From Thioalkalivibrio paradoxus ARh 1 (lineage in GTDB: Bacteria; Pseudomonadota; Gammaproteobacteria; Ectothiorhodospirales; Ectothiorhodospiraceae): a stretch of 64,000 nt of DNA. A program made the translations under genes and the position numbers. This document shows positions 38,421 through 48,957 of this stretch, piece after piece (the first letter of the stretch is position 1; each line of letters opens with the position of its first letter). Location: assembly GCF_000227685.2 (NCBI RefSeq), contig NZ_CP007029.1, positions 1,090,501-1,154,500 of the forward strand, read 5' to 3'. Below the pieces are notes generated by a model. It had not been told where the DNA came from, ran no database searches, and saw only the letters and a list, made by a program, of their open reading frames with translations.

Positions 38421-39737
38421 ATGGACACGGCGGAACGGAGCGTGCTGGATCTCTTGGTTGCCGCACGGCGCTGCGAGGTGGCGGCGCTGGAGCAACTCGC
38501 GCAGGCGGTGCATCTGGTGGCGGTGGTGCGTTCGCTGGCGCACGGCCTGCAGCGCGAGCGTGGGGCGTCGAACCTGTACCTGGGGTCGTCGGGCCGACGT
38601 TACGGCGAGCGGTTGCACCAATACCGCCAGGATGCGGAACACGCGCAGGCCGAGTTTCTCGAACATCTGGCCGCCTGGCTGAGCCCGGGATCCCGCGGCT
38701 TGCAGTGTAGCCGTCTGCTCGGCGGCATCGCGCTGGCGGTGGACGGGCTTTCCCGGCTTCCCGAGTTGCGTGCTGCGATCCTGCGGCAGGATGTCGACGC
38801 GCCCGAGGTGATCGAGCGGTTCACCGAACTGCTCGGCCACCTGCTGGGGGTGGTGTTCGAGGCGGCCGACACGGCCGTGGATCCGGAGGTGTCCCGAGCA
38901 CTGGTTGCGTTGTTCAACCTGATGCAGGGGAAAGAACTTTCGGGCCAGGAGCGCGCGATCGGCGTGGCAGGGTTCAGCCGCGGCTGGGGCGACGAGACGC
39001 TGCGCCAATCGCTGGTGCACCGCATCGATGCCCAGGAGCGCTGCTTCCGGATCTTCACCGAGTTCTGCGACGAGGATTCGCTGCGCCTCTGGCAGGAATG
39101 CCAGACCGTGCCCCATACGGCCGAACTGGAACGGCTGCGCCGGATCGCTTGTACCGGCCCCCGCGATGGACTGCTCGAAGGATCGCTGGACCTCGCCGAA
39201 CTCTGGTTCGCCCAGGCGACCCATCGCATCGACGCGTTGTGGGGGGTAGAGGAGCAACTGGAGGCCCATTTGCGCGGCCTCTGCGAGCGCCGGCTTTCGG
39301 AAGTGCGCGCGGTTCTGGCGGATGCGACCGCGTTGATGGGCGGTGGGGAAGCCGATTCCCGCGGGCGGGAACAGCCGTCGGCGGTGATCCTCGGCAGGCC
39401 GCTGCCGGTCGTAGGCGAGGCGGGTGCGGCACGGTTGATCGAGCTGGAACGCCAGCGGCTGGAGGGCAACGGTGGCCTGCTGCAGACCTCGTTGATGGAC
39501 CTGGTGCATGTCCAGTCACGGCAGTTGCACGCGATCGCGGACGAGCTGACGGCAGCGCGCGAGGCGCTGGCCGAGCGCAAGCTGATCGAGCGGGCGAAGT
39601 CTCTGCTGATGAAGCACCGCAACCTGTCCGAGGAGCAGGCCTACCATCTGCTGCGCCAGACGGCGATGAACCAGAACCGGCGGCTTGCCGAGGTCGCGGA
39701 AGCCACGGTGGCGATGGCGGATATGCTCGCATCCTGA
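38421..39737 (+). CDS. nasR: Nitrate/nitrite-responsive antiterminator NasR
   Basis: 438 residues from the ATG at 38421, with GGAGG about 10 bases upstream. Residues about 40-290 form the NIT domain, an all-helical nitrate sensor, starting VVRSLAHGLQRERGASNLYLGS. Residues about 365-438 form the ANTAR RNA-binding domain: ERKLIERAKSLLMKHRNLSEEQAYHLLRQTAMNQNRRLAEVAEATV. In Klebsiella NasR binds nitrate or nitrite and then prevents termination in the nas leader RNA. The matching RNA target lies immediately downstream (40075-40168), so the regulator and its site are adjacent. Confidence 0.95.
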   Translation: MDTAERSVLDLLVAARRCEVAALEQLAQAVHLVAVVRSLAHGLQRERGASNLYLGSSGRRYGERLHQYRQDAEHAQAEFLEHLAAWLSPGSRGLQCSRLLGGIALAVDGLSRLPELRAAILRQDVDAPEVIERFTELLGHLLGVVFEAADTAVDPEVSRALVALFNLMQGKELSGQERAIGVAGFSRGWGDETLRQSLVHRIDAQERCFRIFTEFCDEDSLRLWQECQTVPHTAELERLRRIACTGPRDGLLEGSLDLAELWFAQATHRIDALWGVEEQLEAHLRGLCERRLSEVRAVLADATALMGGGEADSRGREQPSAVILGRPLPVVGEAGAARLIELERQRLEGNGGLLQTSLMDLVHVQSRQLHAIADELTAAREALAERKLIERAKSLLMKHRNLSEEQAYHLLRQTAMNQNRRLAEVAEATVAMADMLAS

Positions 39738-39773
39738 GCGAACGAACCGCGGGGCGTGGTGGCACCAATGGCC

Positions 39774-39808
39774 AAAGCCCAAAGCCCAAAGCCCAAAGCC
39801 CAAAGCCC
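39774..39808. repeat. Five tandem copies of AAAGCCC
   Basis: A perfect 7-bp microsatellite of five units in the region upstream of the nas promoter. Such tracts change length by slippage. Whether it affects spacing of upstream elements is unknown. Confidence 0.9.
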
Positions 39809-39864: not shown

Positions 39865-39879
39865 GCACTGATCTGGTGC
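39865..39879 (+). promoter_or_regulatory. NtrC-like binding site
   Basis: GCACTGATCTGGTGC has the GCAC-N7-GTGC form of the NtrC (NR-I) consensus. It lies about 190 bp upstream of the sigma-54 promoter, within the range of NtrC enhancers. Confidence 0.5.
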
Positions 39880-40046
39880 GATGGCTCCGGTGATACGGGC
39901 ACTCCCGACGGCCGAATCCCGAGGTCGAAGCGCAGCGCGGGCCGCAGGCGTTGCCGGAGCCAGATTCTAGATGGTTTTCGATATCAACGATTTCCGCGTG
40001 GTTCTGCAAGTCTGAACCAGTGTTGCCAGAAGGCCGGTGCGGTCGT

Positions 40047-40061
40047 TGGCACCACCCTTGC
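40047..40061 (+). promoter_or_regulatory. Sigma-54 (-24/-12) promoter of the nas operon
   Basis: TGGCAC-CACCC-TTGC matches the sigma-54 consensus TGGCAC-N5-TTGC exactly. Transcription would start near 40072-40073, placing the first RNA hairpin (40075) at the very 5' end of the transcript. Confidence 0.85.
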
Positions 40062-40074
40062 TTGATGCTCTTGC

Positions 40075-40121
40075 GAGAGGCCAACGGCGGTCTCTCTTGT
40101 TCACCCAGGACAACGGCGTCC
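40075..40121 (+). promoter_or_regulatory. ANTAR target RNA: two hairpins with AACGGC hexaloops
   Basis: Hairpin 1 (40075-40096) pairs GAGAGGCC with GGTCTCTC (one G-U pair) around the loop AACGGC. Hairpin 2 (40108-40121) pairs GGAC with GTCC around the same loop AACGGC. ANTAR proteins recognise two adjacent stem-loops whose hexaloops have A at position 1 and G at position 4; both loops fit. Hairpin 2 shares bases with the 5' arm of the following terminator, so both cannot form. NasR binding should therefore allow read-through into nrtA. Confidence 0.85.
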
Positions 40122-40168
40122 ACCGGCCCGTCCGCATCGCGGCGGCCCCGGTAGACGCCGTTTTTTTT
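40113..40168 (+). terminator. Regulated intrinsic terminator in the nas leader
   Basis: ACGGCGTC-ACCGG arms (40113-40126) pair with CCGGT-GACGCCGT (40148-40161), with one mismatch, and are followed by eight T (40161-40168). It sits 32 bp before nrtA in the leader and is the default off state. Confidence 0.9.
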
Positions 40169-40200: not shown

Positions 40201-41535
40201 ATGGGCAACAAGGGCAATTCGAATGGCGGCATCACAAGGCGCCGGTTCCTCGGTGGCATGGCTGCGGCAGCCGGTGCCGCGATGCTGGGACCGGCCACGG
40301 CCGGGCGGGTGCTGGCCAGCGCCGGCGGCAAGCCGGAGACCCGAGCGGCCAAGCTCGGCTTCATCGCATTGACCGACGCCGCGCCGCTGTTCGTCGCGGT
40401 CGAGAAGGGCTTTTTCAGGAAGCACGGGATGACCGATGTCGAGGTGCTGAAGCAGGCGTCCTGGGGCACGACCCGCGACAACCTCGTGCTCGGGTCGCGC
40501 CGCAACGGCATCGACGGCGCGCACATTCTGACCCCGATGCCCTATCTGATCAGCACCGGAGCGGTCACGCCCAACAATCAGCCGGTGCCGATGTACATCC
40601 TCGCGCGGCTGAACCTGTCGGGGCAGTGCATCTCGGTTGGAAGAGAGTATGCCGACCTCGAGGTTGGCACGGACGCGAGTGGCTTCAAGGAGGCACTGGC
40701 CGCAAAGGCTTCGGGAGGCAGCCCGGTGCGCGCCGCTATGACCTTCCCCGGCGGTACCCACGACCTGTGGATCCGATATTGGCTCGCAGCCGCCGGAATC
40801 GATCCGAATCGTGACATCGCCACGATCGTGGTGCCGCCACCGCAGATGGTCGCGAACATGCGGGTCGGCAGCATGGACACCTTCTGTGTCTGCGAGCCGT
40901 GGAACATGCAGCTGATCAACCAGGGCATTGGATACACCGCGAACATTACCGGGGAGCTCTGGCACAACCATCCGGAAAAAGCCTTCGCGCTGCGTGCCGA
41001 CTACGTCGATGCCAACCCCAATGCGGCGCTGGCGCTGACCATGGCGATCATGGAGGCACAGATGTACTGCGAAGAGCCGCAGAACCGGGAGGAGGTCGCG
41101 CGCATCTGCTCGCGCCGCCGCTGGATTCACGCGCCCTTCGACGACATCGTCGATCGGATGCAGGGAAACTTCGACTACGGCACCGGCCGCGTGGTCGAAA
41201 ACCACCCCGCACAGATGCGCTACTGGCGGGACCATGCGTCGTATCCGTTCCAGAGCCACGACCTCTGGTTCCTGACCGAGAACATCCGCTGGGGGTATCT
41301 GCCACCGGATCTCGACACCCGCACGCTGATCGCGCGCGTGAACCGCGAGGATCTCTGGCGGGAAGCCGCCGGGACGCTCGGCGTCGACACGGCCGACATC
41401 CCGGAATCCACGTCGCGCGGGATCGAGACCCTCTTCGACGGCAAGGTGTTCGATCCGGACAACCCGCAGGCCTACCTCGACAGCCTGGCGCTGAAGCGTC
41501 TCGCCGGCTCAAGTCCGGTGCCCGCCTACGTCTGA
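40201..41535 (+). CDS. nrtA: Nitrate ABC transporter substrate-binding protein NrtA
   Basis: 444 residues. The N-terminus has a twin-arginine signal (ITRRRFLGGMAAAAGAAMLG), so the folded protein goes to the periplasm. The mature protein is an NrtA/CmpA-type receptor: LGFIALTDAAPLFVAVEKGFFRKHGM, GAHILTPMPYLIS, TFPGGTHDLWIRYWLAAAGI and FCVCEPWN. It delivers nitrate (or nitrite) to the NrtB-NrtD transporter. It is the first gene of the operon controlled by the NasR leader. The family also includes bicarbonate receptors, but the nir/nas neighbours settle the role as nitrate. Confidence 0.94.
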   Translation: MGNKGNSNGGITRRRFLGGMAAAAGAAMLGPATAGRVLASAGGKPETRAAKLGFIALTDAAPLFVAVEKGFFRKHGMTDVEVLKQASWGTTRDNLVLGSRRNGIDGAHILTPMPYLISTGAVTPNNQPVPMYILARLNLSGQCISVGREYADLEVGTDASGFKEALAAKASGGSPVRAAMTFPGGTHDLWIRYWLAAAGIDPNRDIATIVVPPPQMVANMRVGSMDTFCVCEPWNMQLINQGIGYTANITGELWHNHPEKAFALRADYVDANPNAALALTMAIMEAQMYCEEPQNREEVARICSRRRWIHAPFDDIVDRMQGNFDYGTGRVVENHPAQMRYWRDHASYPFQSHDLWFLTENIRWGYLPPDLDTRTLIARVNREDLWREAAGTLGVDTADIPESTSRGIETLFDGKVFDPDNPQAYLDSLALKRLAGSSPVPAYV

Positions 41536-41550
41536 CCACAGGAGCCTGCA

Positions 41551-42480
41551 ATGAATGCCATTCTCGATCGTAACCGGGCCTGGTTCGCCTCGCCCTCTGT
41601 GGACCGGAGGCCGCGGGCCGAAGCATCTGCCGCGGCACCGCCGGAGAGTCCGGCCCAGCCGAAACTGCACCGTGCGGTCGTCGGCGTCATCGCCAGCCGT
41701 TTGCGCCGAATCGGAACCGTCCTGGTCCCGCCGCTGGTGGTCGCCGCGGTGTTCCTGGTGCTCTGGGAGATGGCCACCAGCAGCCCTGGCGCGTCGCTTC
41801 CCTCGCCATCGCAGGTCGTATCCGATACCTGGGATCTGATTGTGCAGCCCTTTTACGACCACGGCGGCAACGACGTCGGCCTCGGCTGGCAACTGCTTGC
41901 CAGCCTCGAACGGGTCGCCTACGGCTACCTGCTCGCGGTGATCGTTGGCGTCGCGCTCGGCGTGCTGGTCGGGCAGTCGACCTGGGCGATGCGGGGGCTG
42001 GACCCGCTGTTCCAGATCCTGCGCACCGTGCCGCCGCTGGCCTGGCTGCCGTTGTCGCTGGCGGCATTCCAGGACAGCAATCCGTCGGCCATCTTCGTGA
42101 TTTTCATCACCGCGATCTGGCCGATCATCATCAACACCTCGGTCGGCATCCGCAACATCTCGCAGGACTACGTGAACGTGGCCCGGGTGCTGCGCCTGAA
42201 CGGCTTCGAGTACTTCACGCGGATCATGCTGCCCGCGGCGGCTCCCTATGTGTTTTCCGGGCTGCGCATCGGCATCGGGCTCGCCTGGCTCGCGATCGTT
42301 GCGGCCGAGATGCTGATCGGCGGAGTCGGCATCGGCTTCTTCATCTGGGATGCCTGGAACTCGTCGATGATCAGCGACATCGTGCTCGCCCTCGTCTACG
42401 TCGGGCTGGTCGGCTTCGCACTGGACCGCATCGTCGCCATCACCGGCCGCTGGGTCACCCGCGGCACACAGGTCAGCTAG
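41551..42480 (+). CDS. nrtB: Nitrate ABC transporter permease NrtB
   Basis: 309 residues. After a variable N-terminal 60 residues there are six membrane segments. The family's cytoplasmic EAA loop is visible as VARVLRLNGFEYFTRIMLPAAAPYVFSGLRIGIGLAW. The segment order and the GVGIGFFIWDAWN stretch are those of NrtB/TauC-type permeases. It lies 15 bp after nrtA and 9 bp before nrtD. Confidence 0.94.
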   Translation: MNAILDRNRAWFASPSVDRRPRAEASAAAPPESPAQPKLHRAVVGVIASRLRRIGTVLVPPLVVAAVFLVLWEMATSSPGASLPSPSQVVSDTWDLIVQPFYDHGGNDVGLGWQLLASLERVAYGYLLAVIVGVALGVLVGQSTWAMRGLDPLFQILRTVPPLAWLPLSLAAFQDSNPSAIFVIFITAIWPIIINTSVGIRNISQDYVNVARVLRLNGFEYFTRIMLPAAAPYVFSGLRIGIGLAWLAIVAAEMLIGGVGIGFFIWDAWNSSMISDIVLALVYVGLVGFALDRIVAITGRWVTRGTQVS

Positions 42481-42489
42481 GAGGACAGC

Positions 42490-43290
42490 ATGAGTCACCA
42501 CTACCTTTCGCTCGAAGGTGTGCACAAGACCTTCGGCACCGGCGCCAGCGGCACCGAGGTGCTGCGCGGAATCGATCTCGGCGTCGACCGGGGCGAGTTC
42601 ATCGCAATCATCGGCCATTCCGGTTGCGGCAAGTCGACGGTATTGAACATCGTCGCCGGGCTGATCGACGCCAGCCTTGGCGCGGTGATCCTGGACGGCC
42701 GCGAGGTCAGCGCCCCCGGCCCGGACCGCAGCGTCGTGTTCCAGAACCACTCGCTGCTGCCCTGGCTGACCGTCTACGAGAACGTCGCCCTCGCTGTGGA
42801 CAAGACCTTCGGCCGCAGCAAGTCGCGGGCGCAGCGGCGTGAATGGACGCTGCGCCATCTCGAAATGGTTCACATGTCGCACGCGCTCGACAAGCGCCCG
42901 GACGAGATCTCGGGCGGCATGAAGCAGCGGGTCGGGATCGCCCGCGCGCTGGCGATGGAACCCAAGGTGCTGCTGCTCGACGAGCCCTTCGGCGCGCTCG
43001 ACGCGCTGACCCGGGCGCACCTGCAGGACGAGGCGATGCGCATTCAGATGGAGCTCGGCAACACCGTGCTGATGGTCACCCACGACGTCGACGAGGCGGT
43101 GCTGCTGTCGGACCGCATCGTGATGATGACCAACGGCCCCGCCGCGACCATCGGCGAGATCCTGAAGATCGACCTGCCGCGCCCGCGCCGGCGCCTGGAG
43201 ATGGCCGATTCCCCCGAATACAACCACTACCGGGCCGAAGTGCTGCGTTTCCTGTACGAACGCCACCGCCAGCCCCAGGAGGCCGCGTGA
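42490..43290 (+). CDS. nrtD: Nitrate ABC transporter ATPase NrtD
   Basis: 266 residues, with GGAGG close to the ATG. Walker A is GHSGCGKST, the signature is ISGGMKQRVGIARAL and Walker B is VLLLDEPFGALD. The size is that of NrtD/NasD; there is no fused receptor domain as in cyanobacterial NrtC. It powers nitrate uptake through NrtB. The TGA shares its last base with the nirB ATG. Confidence 0.94.
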   Translation: MSHHYLSLEGVHKTFGTGASGTEVLRGIDLGVDRGEFIAIIGHSGCGKSTVLNIVAGLIDASLGAVILDGREVSAPGPDRSVVFQNHSLLPWLTVYENVALAVDKTFGRSKSRAQRREWTLRHLEMVHMSHALDKRPDEISGGMKQRVGIARALAMEPKVLLLDEPFGALDALTRAHLQDEAMRIQMELGNTVLMVTHDVDEAVLLSDRIVMMTNGPAATIGEILKIDLPRPRRRLEMADSPEYNHYRAEVLRFLYERHRQPQEAA

Positions 43291-45770
43291 TGCTGACCCG
43301 AACCGGACAAAAACCACGGCTGGTGCTGGTCGGCAACGGCATGGCCGGCATGCGCACCGTCGAGGAACTGCTGAAGCTGAAACCGGACATGTACGAGATC
43401 ACCGTGTTCGGCGCCGAGCCGCATGGCAACTACAACCGCATCCTGCTCTCGCCGGTGCTCGCGGGCGAGAAGACCGTCGACGAGATCCTGCTGAATGACG
43501 ACGGCTGGTACGCCGAGCGCGGCATCCGGCTGCACAAGGGCCGTCGGGTCGCGCACATCCACCGCGGCCGCCGCGAGGTGGTCGCGGAAGACGGCACCCG
43601 CGAACCCTATGACCGCCTGCTGCTCGCGACCGGATCGACGCCGTTCGTGATCCCGGTGCCGGGGCACGATCTGCCGGGCGTGGTCAGCTTCCGCGACCTG
43701 CAGGACGTCGATGCGATGCTTGCCGCGAGCCGCTCGCACCGCCGCGCGGTGGTGATCGGCGGCGGACTGCTTGGGCTCGAGGCCGCGAACGGCCTGCTGC
43801 GCCAGGGCATGGAGGTCACCGTGGTGCATCTGATGGACACCTTGATGGAGCGCCAGCTCGATCCGCCGGCGGCGGCGCTGCTGCAGCGCTCGCTGGAGGC
43901 GAAGGGCCTGCAGTTCCGCCTCGCGGCGCAGACCGAGGCGATTCTGGGCGACGGGCGGGTCACCGGCGTGCGCTTCCGCGACGGCACCGAGGTCCCGGCC
44001 GACCTGGTGGTGATGGCGGTCGGCATCCGGCCCAACGTCGAGCTGGCGAAGGCCTCCGGGATCCACTGCGAGCGCGGCGTGGTGGTGAACGACACCCTGC
44101 AGACCTACGATCCGGTCGTGTACGCGGTCGGGGAGTGCGTGCAGCACCGTGGGCAGTGCTACGGGCTGGTGGCGCCATTGTGGGAGCAGGCGAAGGTCTG
44201 CGCGAACCACCTCGCCGAGTACGGCATCGCGCGCTACGAAGGCTCGGTGACCGCGACCCGGCTGAAGGTCACCGGCATCGACCTGTTCTCGGCCGGGGAC
44301 TTCCTCGGGGACGAGCACAGCGAGGATCTCGTGTTCCAGGACGCGGCACGCGGCGTGTACAAGAAGCTGGTGCTGCGCGACGGCGTGGTGCGCGGCGCGG
44401 TGCTTTACGGCGACACGATCGACGGCTCCTGGTATTTCCAGCTGCTGCGCGAGGGCACGCCGGTCAACGATCTGCGCGACGGCCTGCTGTTCGGGCAGGC
44501 GCACCTCGGCGATTCCGGGCACGGCGACGACAAGACCCGGGTCGCGGCATTGCCGGACGCCGCCGAGATCTGCGGCTGCAACGGCGTCTGCAAGGGCGCG
44601 ATCGTGCAGGCGATCACCGAAAAGAAGCTGTTCACGCTCGACGACGTGCGCGCGCATACCAAGGCGTCGAGTTCCTGCGGCTCCTGCACTGGCCTGGTCG
44701 AGTCGCTGCTCGCGACCACGCTCGGTGGCGACTATTCGCAGACACCGGCGAAGAAGCCCGTCTGCGCCTGCACCGAACACAGCCACGACGAGGTCCGGGC
44801 CGCGATCACCGCGCAGGGTCTGAAGACGATGGCAGCGGTGTTCGAGGCGCTCGACTGGAAAACCCCGGACGGCTGTCACGTCTGCCGCCCCGCGCTGAAC
44901 TACTACCTGCTCGCCGCGTGGCCAGGCGAGTACCGAGACGATGCCCAGTCGCGGTTCATCAACGAACGCGCGCACGGCAACATCCAGAAGGACGGGACCT
45001 ACTCGGTGGTGCCGCGCATCTGGGGCGGGGTGACCACGCCGACCGAGTTGCGCGCGATCGCTGCCGTCGCGGAGAAGTACCGGGTGCCGACGGTCAAGTT
45101 CACCGGCGGTCAGCGCATCGACCTGCTCGGCGTGAAGAAGGAGGATCTTCCGGCGATGTGGCGCGACCTCGGTGCGGCGGGTTTCGTGTCCGGGCATGCC
45201 TACGGCAAGGCCTTGCGCACGGTGAAGACCTGCGTCGGTTCCGAGTGGTGCCGCTTCGGCACCCAGGATTCGACCGGTCTCGGGATCCAGATGGAGAAAC
45301 TGACCTGGGGATCCTGGACCCCGCACAAGTTCAAGATGGGCGTCTCGGGCTGCCCGCGCAACTGCGCGGAAGCGACGATCAAGGATCTCGGCGTCGTCTG
45401 TGTCGACTCGGGCTACGAGATCCATGTCGGCGGCAATGGCGGTGTGAAGGTGCGGGTCACCGACTTCCTCTGCAAGGTCGCGACCGAGGCCGAGGTGCTC
45501 GAGATGACCGGCGCGTTCATGCAGCTCTACCGCGAGGAAGCGCGTTACCTGGAGCGCACCGCGCCGTGGATCGAGCGGGTGGGGCTGACCCACGTGCAGC
45601 AGGCGATCGTCGAGGACGCGGACAACCGCGCGCGGCTGCACCGGCGCTTTCTGGAGTCCCAGGGCCCGGCGCAGGTGGACCCCTGGGCCAAGCGGGCCGC
45701 GGGGCATGCGGCGCAGGAGTTCCAGCCGCTCACGCCGATCGCAGAACGCCACGAGGAGGTGTCGGCATGA
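43290..45770 (+). CDS. nirB: Assimilatory nitrite reductase large subunit NirB
   Basis: 826 residues from the ATG at 43290, overlapping the nrtD stop by one base. Residues about 8-400 are the FAD/NAD(P)H module (LVLVGNGMAGMRTVEELL; GGGLLGLEAANGL). Two [2Fe-2S] BFD-like segments follow (CGCNGVCKGAIVQAI with CGSC, and VCACTEHSHDEV with CHVC). The sulfite/nitrite reductase domain ends with the siroheme-[4Fe-4S] cluster cysteines in TCVGSEWCRFG and SGCPRNCAEA. The enzyme reduces nitrite to ammonium in the cytoplasm using NAD(P)H. It acts with NirD, encoded next with a 4-bp overlap. Confidence 0.96.
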   Translation: MLTRTGQKPRLVLVGNGMAGMRTVEELLKLKPDMYEITVFGAEPHGNYNRILLSPVLAGEKTVDEILLNDDGWYAERGIRLHKGRRVAHIHRGRREVVAEDGTREPYDRLLLATGSTPFVIPVPGHDLPGVVSFRDLQDVDAMLAASRSHRRAVVIGGGLLGLEAANGLLRQGMEVTVVHLMDTLMERQLDPPAAALLQRSLEAKGLQFRLAAQTEAILGDGRVTGVRFRDGTEVPADLVVMAVGIRPNVELAKASGIHCERGVVVNDTLQTYDPVVYAVGECVQHRGQCYGLVAPLWEQAKVCANHLAEYGIARYEGSVTATRLKVTGIDLFSAGDFLGDEHSEDLVFQDAARGVYKKLVLRDGVVRGAVLYGDTIDGSWYFQLLREGTPVNDLRDGLLFGQAHLGDSGHGDDKTRVAALPDAAEICGCNGVCKGAIVQAITEKKLFTLDDVRAHTKASSSCGSCTGLVESLLATTLGGDYSQTPAKKPVCACTEHSHDEVRAAITAQGLKTMAAVFEALDWKTPDGCHVCRPALNYYLLAAWPGEYRDDAQSRFINERAHGNIQKDGTYSVVPRIWGGVTTPTELRAIAAVAEKYRVPTVKFTGGQRIDLLGVKKEDLPAMWRDLGAAGFVSGHAYGKALRTVKTCVGSEWCRFGTQDSTGLGIQMEKLTWGSWTPHKFKMGVSGCPRNCAEATIKDLGVVCVDSGYEIHVGGNGGVKVRVTDFLCKVATEAEVLEMTGAFMQLYREEARYLERTAPWIERVGLTHVQQAIVEDADNRARLHRRFLESQGPAQVDPWAKRAAGHAAQEFQPLTPIAERHEEVSA

Positions 45771-46174
45771 ACTGGGTGAAACTGGGCGCTTTGGAGACGA
45801 TTCCGCGGCTCGGTGCGCGGGTGGTCGCAGGACCGAACGGCGACATCGCGGTGTTCCGCACCGCGGCCGACACGGTATTCGCGCTGGCCGACCGTTGCCC
45901 GCACAAGGGCGGGCCGCTGTCGCAGGGCATTGTGCACGGCGAGCGGGTGACCTGCCCGCTGCACAACTGGGTGATCGATCTGGCCTCGGGATCCGCGACC
46001 GGCCCCGACACCGGCTGCACCGGTGCCTACCGGGTGCGGGTCGACCAGGGGCAGGTCTGGCTGGATCTCGACCCGGTCGTCTCTGCCCCGGTCCACGCGG
46101 CCGCGGCGGATCCAGAGGAGGCAGCCGAGGCGGGGACGCAGGCCTCGACCGCGGCGCGGCGGGAGGCGGTATGA
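45767..46174 (+). CDS. nirD: Nitrite reductase small subunit NirD
   Basis: 135 residues. A Rieske-type domain carries CPHKGGPLS and CPLHNWVIDL, so the Cys-His pairs for a [2Fe-2S] centre are present, although many NirD proteins lack a cluster. The last 30 residues are Ala/Glu-rich and probably disordered. Starts and stops overlap nirB and nasA (ATGA), giving one translational unit nirB-nirD-nasA. Confidence 0.94.
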   Translation: MNWVKLGALETIPRLGARVVAGPNGDIAVFRTAADTVFALADRCPHKGGPLSQGIVHGERVTCPLHNWVIDLASGSATGPDTGCTGAYRVRVDQGQVWLDLDPVVSAPVHAAAADPEEAAEAGTQASTAARREAV

Positions 46175-48957
46175 GCCCGCGGCCGGAAAGCCCGATGACC
46201 CGCAGCACCTGCCCGTACTGCGGGGTGGGCTGCGGGGTCGTCGTGCAGCCCACACCCGGCACGACGGAAGCGGGCGACTGCGAGCCGTCCGCGCCACCGG
46301 TGCTCGTCTCGGGCGACCCCGAGCACCCGGCGAACCGCGGCCGGCTCTGCTCGAAGGGCGCGGCGCTGGCCGAGACCCTGGGCCGGGAAACCCGGCTGCT
46401 CGAGCCGCGCATCGGGGATCGGGCAGTGTCCTGGGACGAGGCGCTCGATCATGTCGCGCGCGGTTTTCTCGACGTGATCGACTCGGACGGTCCGGAGGCG
46501 GTCGCGTTCTATGTCTCCGGGCAGTTGCTGACCGAGGACTACTATGTCGCGAACAAGCTGATGAAGGGCTTCATCGGTGCCGCGAACATCGACACCAATT
46601 CCCGGCTGTGCATGTCGAGCGCGGTCGCCGCCCATCTGCGCGCGTTCGGCGCCGATGCCGTTCCGGGCAACTACGAGGATCTGGAACTCGCCGATCTGGT
46701 GGTTCTCGCGGGGTCGAACCTTGCCTGGACGCACCCGGTGCTGTTCCAGCGCCTGCAGGCCGCCCGCGAACGGCGCCCGCAGCTGCGCGTGGTGGTGATC
46801 GATCCCCGCCGCACTGCCACCGCCGAGGCCGCCGATCTGCACCTCGCGCTGGCGCCGGGTACCGACGGCTGGCTGTTCAACGGCCTGTTGCACCACCTCT
46901 ACCGCGAGGATCGGCTCGACCTGCAGTTCCTCGAGGACCATGTGGACGGCTTCGCCGCGACGCTGCGCGCGGCGCGGGACACCGCCGGCTCGGTGCCGCG
47001 CGTCGCCTCCGCCTGCGGGCTGCCCGAGGCCGACGTGGCGCAGTTCTTCCGCTGGTTCGCGCAGACCGAACGGACCGTCACACTGTTCTCACAGGGGATC
47101 AACCAGTCCGACAGCGGCACCGACAAGGCCAACGCGATCCTGAATGTGCACCTCGCGACGGGTCGCATCGGCCAACCCGCACAGGCGCCGTTCTCGGTGA
47201 CCGGACAGCCGAACGCGATGGGCGGGCGCGAGGTCGGCGGGCTCGCGAACCAGCTCGCCGCGCACATGGGCTTCGACGATCCGGGCGCGCACGATCGGCT
47301 GCGGCGTTTCTGGCGGGCGCCCCGACTGGCGGCACGACCGGGCCTGAAAGCCGTCGAGCTGTTCCAGGCAATCGAAAGCGGGCGGGTGAAGGCGGTCTGG
47401 ATCATGGGCACCAACCCGGCGTTCAGTCTGCCCGACGCCGAACGGGTCTCCGATGCGCTGCGCCGCTGCCCGCTGGTGGTCGTGTCCGACTGCGTGGCCG
47501 ACACCGAGACGACGCGGCTCGCCGACGTGCGGCTGCCCGCGTCGGCCTGGGGCGAGAAGGACGGCACGGTCACCAACTCGGAGCGGTGCATCTCGCGCCA
47601 GCGAGCGTTCCTGCCGCCGGCCGGGCAGGCGCGGCCGGACTGGTGGATCGTCTGCGAGGTCGCGCGTCGGATGGGCTTCGGCTCGGCTTTCCCCTACACC
47701 CGGCCGGTGGAAATCTTTCGCGAACACGCCCGCCTGTCGGCGTTCGAGAACCACGGGGAACGCGCATTCGACATCGGCGCGCTGGCAGGGCTGGGCGACG
47801 CCGGCTACGACTCACTGGCGCCGGTGCAATGGCCGGTGTTTGCGGCGCGTGCAGCCGCGGCCCCGGCAATCGGATCGGCGCCAAGCGAGCCGGACCGTGC
47901 CGGCCGGCCCGGTACCGGCCGGTTCTTTTCGGACGGTCGTTTCTTCCATGCCGGAGGCCGCGCGCGGCTGATACCGGTCGTGCCCCAGGGGCCGAGTCTG
48001 GCCATCGGCGCGGCTTTCCCGCTGCGCATGAACACCGGCCGCATTCGGGATCACTGGCACAGCATGACGCGCACCGCGCTGTCGGCACGGCTCAGCGCAC
48101 ACCGGCCGGAGCCCTTCGTCGAGATTCACCCGACGGATGCCGCGGCCCATGGGATCGGCGACGGGCAGCTCGCACGCCTGTCCGGAACCGGCGGGCAGGT
48201 CGCGCTGCTGCGGGCCCGGGTCACCGCGGCGCAGCCGCCCGGCTCCGTGTTCGTGCCGATGCATTGGAGCGCGCCCCAGGCGCCGGCTGCACGGGTCAAC
48301 GCGCTGGTGCCCGCGTCGACCGATCCGATCTCGGGGCAGCCGGCGTTCAAGGCGATACCAGTCGACCTGCGGCCGCTCGCCGCGGACTGGGTGGGATTCC
48401 TGCTGTCGCGCGAACGTCGGACCCTACCGGAACTGCCGTACCGAGCTGAATCACGCGGCTTCGGTTTTTTCCGCTACGAACTGGCCGGAACGACAGCGGT
48501 GCCGGACTGGGTCCTCTGGGCCGACCGGATCCTCGGTTCCGCGGGCGATCGTCTGGAATTCTCCGATCAAGGGGCCGGCGTGTTCCGCGCGGCACGGATC
48601 CAGAGCGGGCGTTTGATGGCCGTGCTGTTCATCGGACCGGACCCGGCGCGGCTGCCGCCGCGCGAGGCACTGGGTCAGCTCTTCGGCCAGGCGGTGCTCG
48701 ACGACCGGGCGCGAATCGGCCTGCTGTCGGGCCACCCGGAGACGGCCGCCCCGGCGCAGGGACGTCTGGTCTGTGCCTGCCATGGTGTGGGCGAAGAACG
48801 CATTCGCCAAGCGATCCGCGAGAGCGGGCTGTCCACGCAAGCGGAATTGGCCGACACCCTGGGTGCGGGAACCGGCTGCGGATCCTGCATCCCGGAACTG
48901 CGCGGTCTGCTCGGCGAGACGGTTTCAGCCGCTGGCGCGCGCGCCGGAATCCCGTGA
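46171..48957 (+). CDS. nasA: Assimilatory nitrate reductase catalytic subunit NasA
   Basis: 928 residues. The N-terminal [4Fe-4S] motif is TCPYCGVGCGVVV with the later GRLCSKG. The bis-MGD molybdopterin domain follows (about 60-540; VAFYVSGQLLTEDYYVANKL, STDKANAILNVH-like SGTDKANAIL). The cofactor-binding C-domain includes FPLRMNTGRIRDHWHSMTRT. A BFD-like [2Fe-2S] domain closes the protein (VCACHGVGEERI, GTGCGSCIPEL), as in Klebsiella NasA. It reduces nitrate to nitrite in the cytoplasm; the electron donor partner NasB/C is not encoded here. Confidence 0.95.
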   Translation: MSPRPESPMTRSTCPYCGVGCGVVVQPTPGTTEAGDCEPSAPPVLVSGDPEHPANRGRLCSKGAALAETLGRETRLLEPRIGDRAVSWDEALDHVARGFLDVIDSDGPEAVAFYVSGQLLTEDYYVANKLMKGFIGAANIDTNSRLCMSSAVAAHLRAFGADAVPGNYEDLELADLVVLAGSNLAWTHPVLFQRLQAARERRPQLRVVVIDPRRTATAEAADLHLALAPGTDGWLFNGLLHHLYREDRLDLQFLEDHVDGFAATLRAARDTAGSVPRVASACGLPEADVAQFFRWFAQTERTVTLFSQGINQSDSGTDKANAILNVHLATGRIGQPAQAPFSVTGQPNAMGGREVGGLANQLAAHMGFDDPGAHDRLRRFWRAPRLAARPGLKAVELFQAIESGRVKAVWIMGTNPAFSLPDAERVSDALRRCPLVVVSDCVADTETTRLADVRLPASAWGEKDGTVTNSERCISRQRAFLPPAGQARPDWWIVCEVARRMGFGSAFPYTRPVEIFREHARLSAFENHGERAFDIGALAGLGDAGYDSLAPVQWPVFAARAAAAPAIGSAPSEPDRAGRPGTGRFFSDGRFFHAGGRARLIPVVPQGPSLAIGAAFPLRMNTGRIRDHWHSMTRTALSARLSAHRPEPFVEIHPTDAAAHGIGDGQLARLSGTGGQVALLRARVTAAQPPGSVFVPMHWSAPQAPAARVNALVPASTDPISGQPAFKAIPVDLRPLAADWVGFLLSRERRTLPELPYRAESRGFGFFRYELAGTTAVPDWVLWADRILGSAGDRLEFSDQGAGVFRAARIQSGRLMAVLFIGPDPARLPPREALGQLFGQAVLDDRARIGLLSGHPETAAPAQGRLVCACHGVGEERIRQAIRESGLSTQAELADTLGAGTGCGSCIPELRGLLGETVSAAGARAGIP

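Follow-up and report, generated by a model that had tools for sequence, protein, structure and literature searches.

The window analysed here, a stretch of 64 kb, holds on its forward strand the gene of a predicted nitrate-responsive regulator, a short untranslated leader and an operon for nitrate uptake and reduction, the features of which are as follows:

38421..39737, + strand, nasR, encoding NIT nitrate-sensor and ANTAR RNA-binding domains (Pfam, PDB 4akk; presumed start codon)
39865..39879, + strand, putative NtrC-type enhancer palindrome GCACTGATCTGGTGC (exact match, about 201 bp before the predicted start)
40046..40062, + strand, sigma-54 promoter TTGGCAC-N5-TTGCT (-24/-12; sequence match; the Rfam narK model spans the promoter)
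40075..40096, + strand, ANTAR hairpin 1, GAGAGGCC-AACGGC-GGTCTCTC, 8 bp (fold, covariation)
40108..40121, + strand, ANTAR hairpin 2, GGAC-AACGGC-GTCC, 4 bp (fold, conservation)
40112..40168, + strand, intrinsic terminator with its T8 end at 40161-40168 (sequence and fold)
40201..41535, + strand, nitrate ABC transporter substrate-binding protein (NrtA/NasF-like, NMT1_2), first gene of the operon (Pfam)
41551..42480, + strand, ABC transporter permease (NrtB/NasE-like; Pfam)
42490..43290, + strand, ABC transporter ATPase (NrtC/NasD-like; Pfam)
43290..45770, + strand, nirB, assimilatory nitrite reductase large subunit (Pfam)
45770..46150, + strand, nirD, Rieske-type small subunit (Pfam)
46156..48957, + strand, nasA-type assimilatory nitrate reductase (named from its translation, start not fixed)

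Regarding the regulator, the original prediction had placed a cognate nasR directly upstream of the leader, and the assignment holds along the length of the protein. Indeed, Pfam recognizes a NIT domain (E=1e-49) and an ANTAR domain (E=4e-19), and the protein aligns with the solved Klebsiella NasR (PDB 4akk) across both domains (E=6e-56). The alignment with 4akk places GQERAIG of the window protein opposite GQERALG, and by our own mapping this GQERA motif probably corresponds to the nitrate-pocket residues E175/R176 of NasR (numbering from PMC7496416). An ANTAR search of the whole genome (3.76 Mb) identified no ANTAR protein other than this NasR. At other leader loci the nasA-type reductase, used as query, recurs after nirB/nirD. 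A short tandem repeat of CCAAAGCC-like units, seen in the translations of open reading frames, lies right past the nasR stop codon (39740-39800).

The consensus -24/-12 promoter that had been proposed is confirmed, with the start of its -24 element corrected to 40046: it carries TGGCAC-N5-TTGC with the correct spacing and is the sole match to TGGCAY-N5-TTGC on both strands of the window. Because the GC of its -12 box (-13/-12) lies at 40060-40061, transcription is predicted to start near 40073 and hairpin 1 to begin at about +3, in agreement with the earlier view that the hairpins follow from the predicted start site. A scan for sigma-70 promoters found nothing, and the genome encodes both sigma-54 and a clear NtrC (720 bits for a cut-off of 559). 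The palindrome GCACTGATCTGGTGC is the only exact NtrC-type match in the window, where 0.64 would be expected by chance. Exact NtrC-type sites are enriched upstream of related leaders (9.5%, against 0.5% for control stretches), as are sites allowing one mismatch at most (42% against 9%).

Within the leader, both predicted hairpins were found with the identical hexaloop AACGGC, and both have the A at position 1 and the G at position 4 that define the hexaloop rule. It had also been proposed that hairpin 2 overlaps the 5' arm of a T8 terminator, so that binding and termination would exclude each other. The base of the terminator pairs 40112-40120 with 40154-40162 below an imperfect upper stem, and the loop and 3' arm of hairpin 2 make up the terminator's 5' arm (40112-40120), a correction to the arm first described. 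RNA folding, which had been suggested as a check, agrees with this exclusion: both hairpins form when the leader is folded to 40122 (-19.3 kcal/mol), while in the fold of the full 96-nt leader hairpin 1 is retained and hairpin 2 is displaced by the terminator. Folded alone, the terminator reaches -35.5 kcal/mol (z -5.8) and none of 200 shuffles is equally stable; a simple terminator scan did not detect it because its stem has mismatches. Hairpin 2 and the terminator are mutually exclusive, and in these folds termination is the default state. In the whole genome (3.76 Mb) the two-loop pattern is found once and a control pattern read backwards seven times, so that a chance occurrence of the loops by themselves is not improbable; the promoter combined with both loops occurs once, with no control match.

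The original prediction required that both loops be kept in related genomes, and this is what we observed. With the Rfam narK model, matches were obtained in 21 of 58 genomes of relatives, and those of the genus and of neighbouring genera possess both loops, the -24 box, the -12 element and the terminator. A NIT-ANTAR gene lies upstream of these leaders wherever the available sequence extends far enough, an NrtA-like gene follows, and gene order and leader are common to the checkable relatives in the family. A wider scan of named genomes for the promoter and two loops returned at least 120 stretches, mostly from Pseudomonadota; among the matches listed are Pseudomonas, Stutzerimonas, Halomonas, Comamonas, Delftia, Ramlibacter, Caballeronia, Azospirillum, Kosakonia, Buttiauxella and other genera, and most of these leaders adjoin NIT-ANTAR/NasT genes or precede nitrate transport/nirB genes. 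A few matches with poor stems and without nitrate genes are probably due to chance. Judged from these sequence matches, the arrangement is common outside enteric bacteria, including Burkholderiales and Halomonas. The distance from the -24 box to loop 1 is 36-42 bp in most leaders (mode 37; 36 in the window leader) and 50-56 bp in a second group, which includes the Pseudomonas nirB leaders.

As the leader collection was picked by its loops, loop conservation within it is partly circular, and the counts, drawn from related species, are not independent events. Hairpin 1 is informative at pairs 2-8, which the search pattern does not fix: among 127 distinct leaders they are paired in 79-120, compared with 47-66 for shuffled sequences, and each shows six pair types, a strong sign of compensatory change in hairpin 1. 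Pair 1 of hairpin 1 and pairs 1-3 of hairpin 2 are fixed by the pattern, the latter being hence uninformative on covariation. A terminator overlapping loop 2 is kept in 127 of 150 collected leaders versus 53 with shuffled middles. This retention bears on the possibility that NasR acts otherwise, for instance on translation or RNA stability, the terminator being a plain end-of-leader signal that NasR does not exclude. Such a route would suit the ANTAR targets known to be devoid of terminators (PMC3369931) as well as the 23 of 150 leaders (about 15%) in which the rule used finds no overlapping terminator; it sits poorly with the high retention of the overlap and with a window leader in which the terminator's 5' arm coincides exactly with loop 2 and its 3' arm, and we regard it as very improbable.

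The best explanation, to which we assign a probability of roughly 0.93, is a two-input nitrate-assimilation switch combining NtrC/sigma-54 initiation with NasR antitermination. For the leader itself, anatomy, conservation and linkage are established; as read from its sequence, NasR antitermination appears well supported. The Klebsiella and Pseudomonas systems are the basis on which we infer that NasR binds the RNA, where transcription starts and how NtrC takes part. Under nitrogen shortage, NtrC-P bound to the upstream enhancer would activate sigma-54 RNA polymerase at 40046-40062, with transcription starting near 40073. When nitrate is lacking, hairpin 1 and then the terminator would form in the emerging transcript, and polymerase would stop at the run of eight T. 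When nitrate or nitrite is present, the NIT sensor domain of NasR would release the ANTAR domain, which would bind the two AACGGC loops on their emergence; hairpin 2, held by ANTAR, would sequester the 5' arm of the terminator and polymerase would therefore continue into the genes for the nitrate transporter, nirBD and nasA. The locus would then operate as an AND gate in which NtrC-P and sigma-54 initiate while NasR and nitrate allow passage through the terminator, the enzymes of nitrate use being very probably made only when nitrogen is short and nitrate is present. Published precedents are the dual-hexaloop mechanism of ANTAR antitermination (PMC3369931), the binding of NasR to P1P2 RNA with nitrate (PMC7496416) and the control of Klebsiella nasF by both Ntr and NasR (PMC5424462).

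Among the closest known systems is NasR/nasF of Klebsiella oxytoca, which likewise has a NIT-ANTAR NasR, two hairpins with A1/G4 hexaloops, the second overlapping a terminator, and an operon for a nitrate ABC transporter and reductase, and which is under Ntr control, as predicted for the window leader, whereas the organism of the window is a non-enteric gammaproteobacterium. Among enteric bacteria, Kosakonia (L110) has the two AACGGC loops and the gene order of the window; however, in L109 and L110, both of them enteric loci, the -24 box and the loop of hairpin 1 are 54 bp apart, compared with 36 bp here. The NalA leader of Pseudomonas nirBD also shares the sigma-54 promoter, two hexaloop hairpins and overlapping terminator, and has the NtrC control that is predicted for the window leader (a sigma-54 promoter, an NtrC site in PAO1 and a terminator are described in PMC3973561). 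It differs from the window by its two-protein NasS-NasT sensor instead of a one-component NasR (NasT antitermination at NalA: PMC12830290), by a loop 1 at 50-53 bp from the -24 box and by the presence of several leaders per genome. More distantly, EutV and AmiR leaders have a dual hexaloop antiterminator with terminator overlap (PMC3369931) but respond to other signals through other sensor domains. The leader is a further example of a known switch type, useful and, given its Klebsiella and Pseudomonas precedents, unsurprising. Its description as a compact and readable example outside the enteric bacteria stands, since the organism is non-enteric and all parts can be read, but the interest first attached to it was overstated: the arrangement is common, and as it has been published for Pseudomonas NalA its non-enteric occurrence is no surprise. 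Since the genome has a single ANTAR protein and a single leader, it would nonetheless be a convenient test case for how nitrogen-shortage and nitrate inputs are combined.

In Rfam, the window matches the narK RNA (RF03032) with 42.7 bits (E=6.6e-06), just under the gathering cut-off of 43.2, and for this marginal shortfall the leader is not filed as a member, though built alike. The RF03032 model, like the window, comprises a -24/-12 promoter, hairpin 1 and a hairpin 2 that is left unmarked; it marks hairpin 1 only and treats promoter DNA as RNA, and the strong members found here are from Pseudomonas, many of them directly after nasST. P11 (RF00625) also includes promoter DNA, and neither family is placed in any Rfam clan. 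At gathering threshold in Pseudomonas, P11 falls on nirB leaders (for example the sigma-54/ANTAR leaders L070:3696-3833, L073:6866-7002 and L146:3403-3543, among others) and narK on neighbouring leaders; nearly all these matches coincide with promoter and two-loop matches, except one unrelated rmf match. Weak matches of weev_FSE and mir-1909 at the locus were rejected as chance fits to the terminator stem.

These matches are relevant to whether the short terminated RNA could be a trans-acting small RNA, as in the annotation of Pseudomonas P11. Rfam files P11 as a gene-type sRNA, papers treat it as a regulator (PMC12080996), and the window has a weak match to it (22.5 bits for a gathering cut-off of 70). 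The P11 and narK models coincide exactly with the sigma-54/ANTAR leaders that precede nirB and the neighbouring gene; a cis attenuator accounts for this fully, and we judge a trans-acting role here unlikely, indeed more so than a different mode of NasR action. Returning to antitermination, we consider it probable that the window leader, the narK RNA and the P11 sRNA form a single class of promoter-coupled NtrC/sigma-54/ANTAR nitrate module: the transcript would usually open with hairpin 1 at its very 5' end (most often with loop 1 37 bp past the -24 box), and NasR or NasS-NasT would be interchangeable readers. If this is true, P11, reportedly the RNA used by C. elegans for inherited avoidance of P. 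aeruginosa (PMC10977744; PMC12080996), would be an aborted nitrate leader (NalA) and would be abundant under nitrogen shortage in the absence of nitrate. A literature term search gave no paper with both 'NalA' and 'P11' among the matches listed. Uniting P11 and narK as one attenuator class with promoter-containing models would bear on both their annotation and the interpretation of P11.

Across the class, the promoter and two-loop pattern is present in 10 of 370 genomes, with no match for the backward control, and an ANTAR protein is encoded in all 10 compared with 126 of 370 overall (34% background). The least likely reading, a riboswitch in which nitrate binds the RNA directly, could account for a conserved and covarying hairpin 1, but the loops fit the ANTAR rule, every pattern-bearing genome has an ANTAR gene, often an adjacent one, and no extended aptamer fold is seen.

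Several variants were encountered among the leaders. In Pseudomonas (L048, L050, L071 and L123), several leaders follow one another in the same genome, one of which immediately precedes nasS-nasT, and this layout suggests that the regulator may control its own operon by antitermination. Candidates L025, L027, L040 and L043, together with low-scoring narK matches elsewhere in the genome, were dropped, as they have no convincing hairpin pair. At L024:1501-1577, a weak match (E=0.014) that is perhaps due to chance lacks a terminator; there, a possible sigma-54 promoter precedes an imperfect hairpin 1 and a GAC-AATGAG-GTC loop, the latter immediately ahead of a start codon. L018, L035 and L038 have three hairpins with A1/G4 hexaloops instead of two, with no evident sigma-54 promoter near L018 and L038. 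Finally, most congeners (L010-L017, L019-L021, L023 and L026) have a longer linker of 43 nt between hairpins 1 and 2; absent from the window leader, L008 and L009, a stable hairpin of about -15 to -22 kcal/mol is held in this linker, with a compensatory change in L010.
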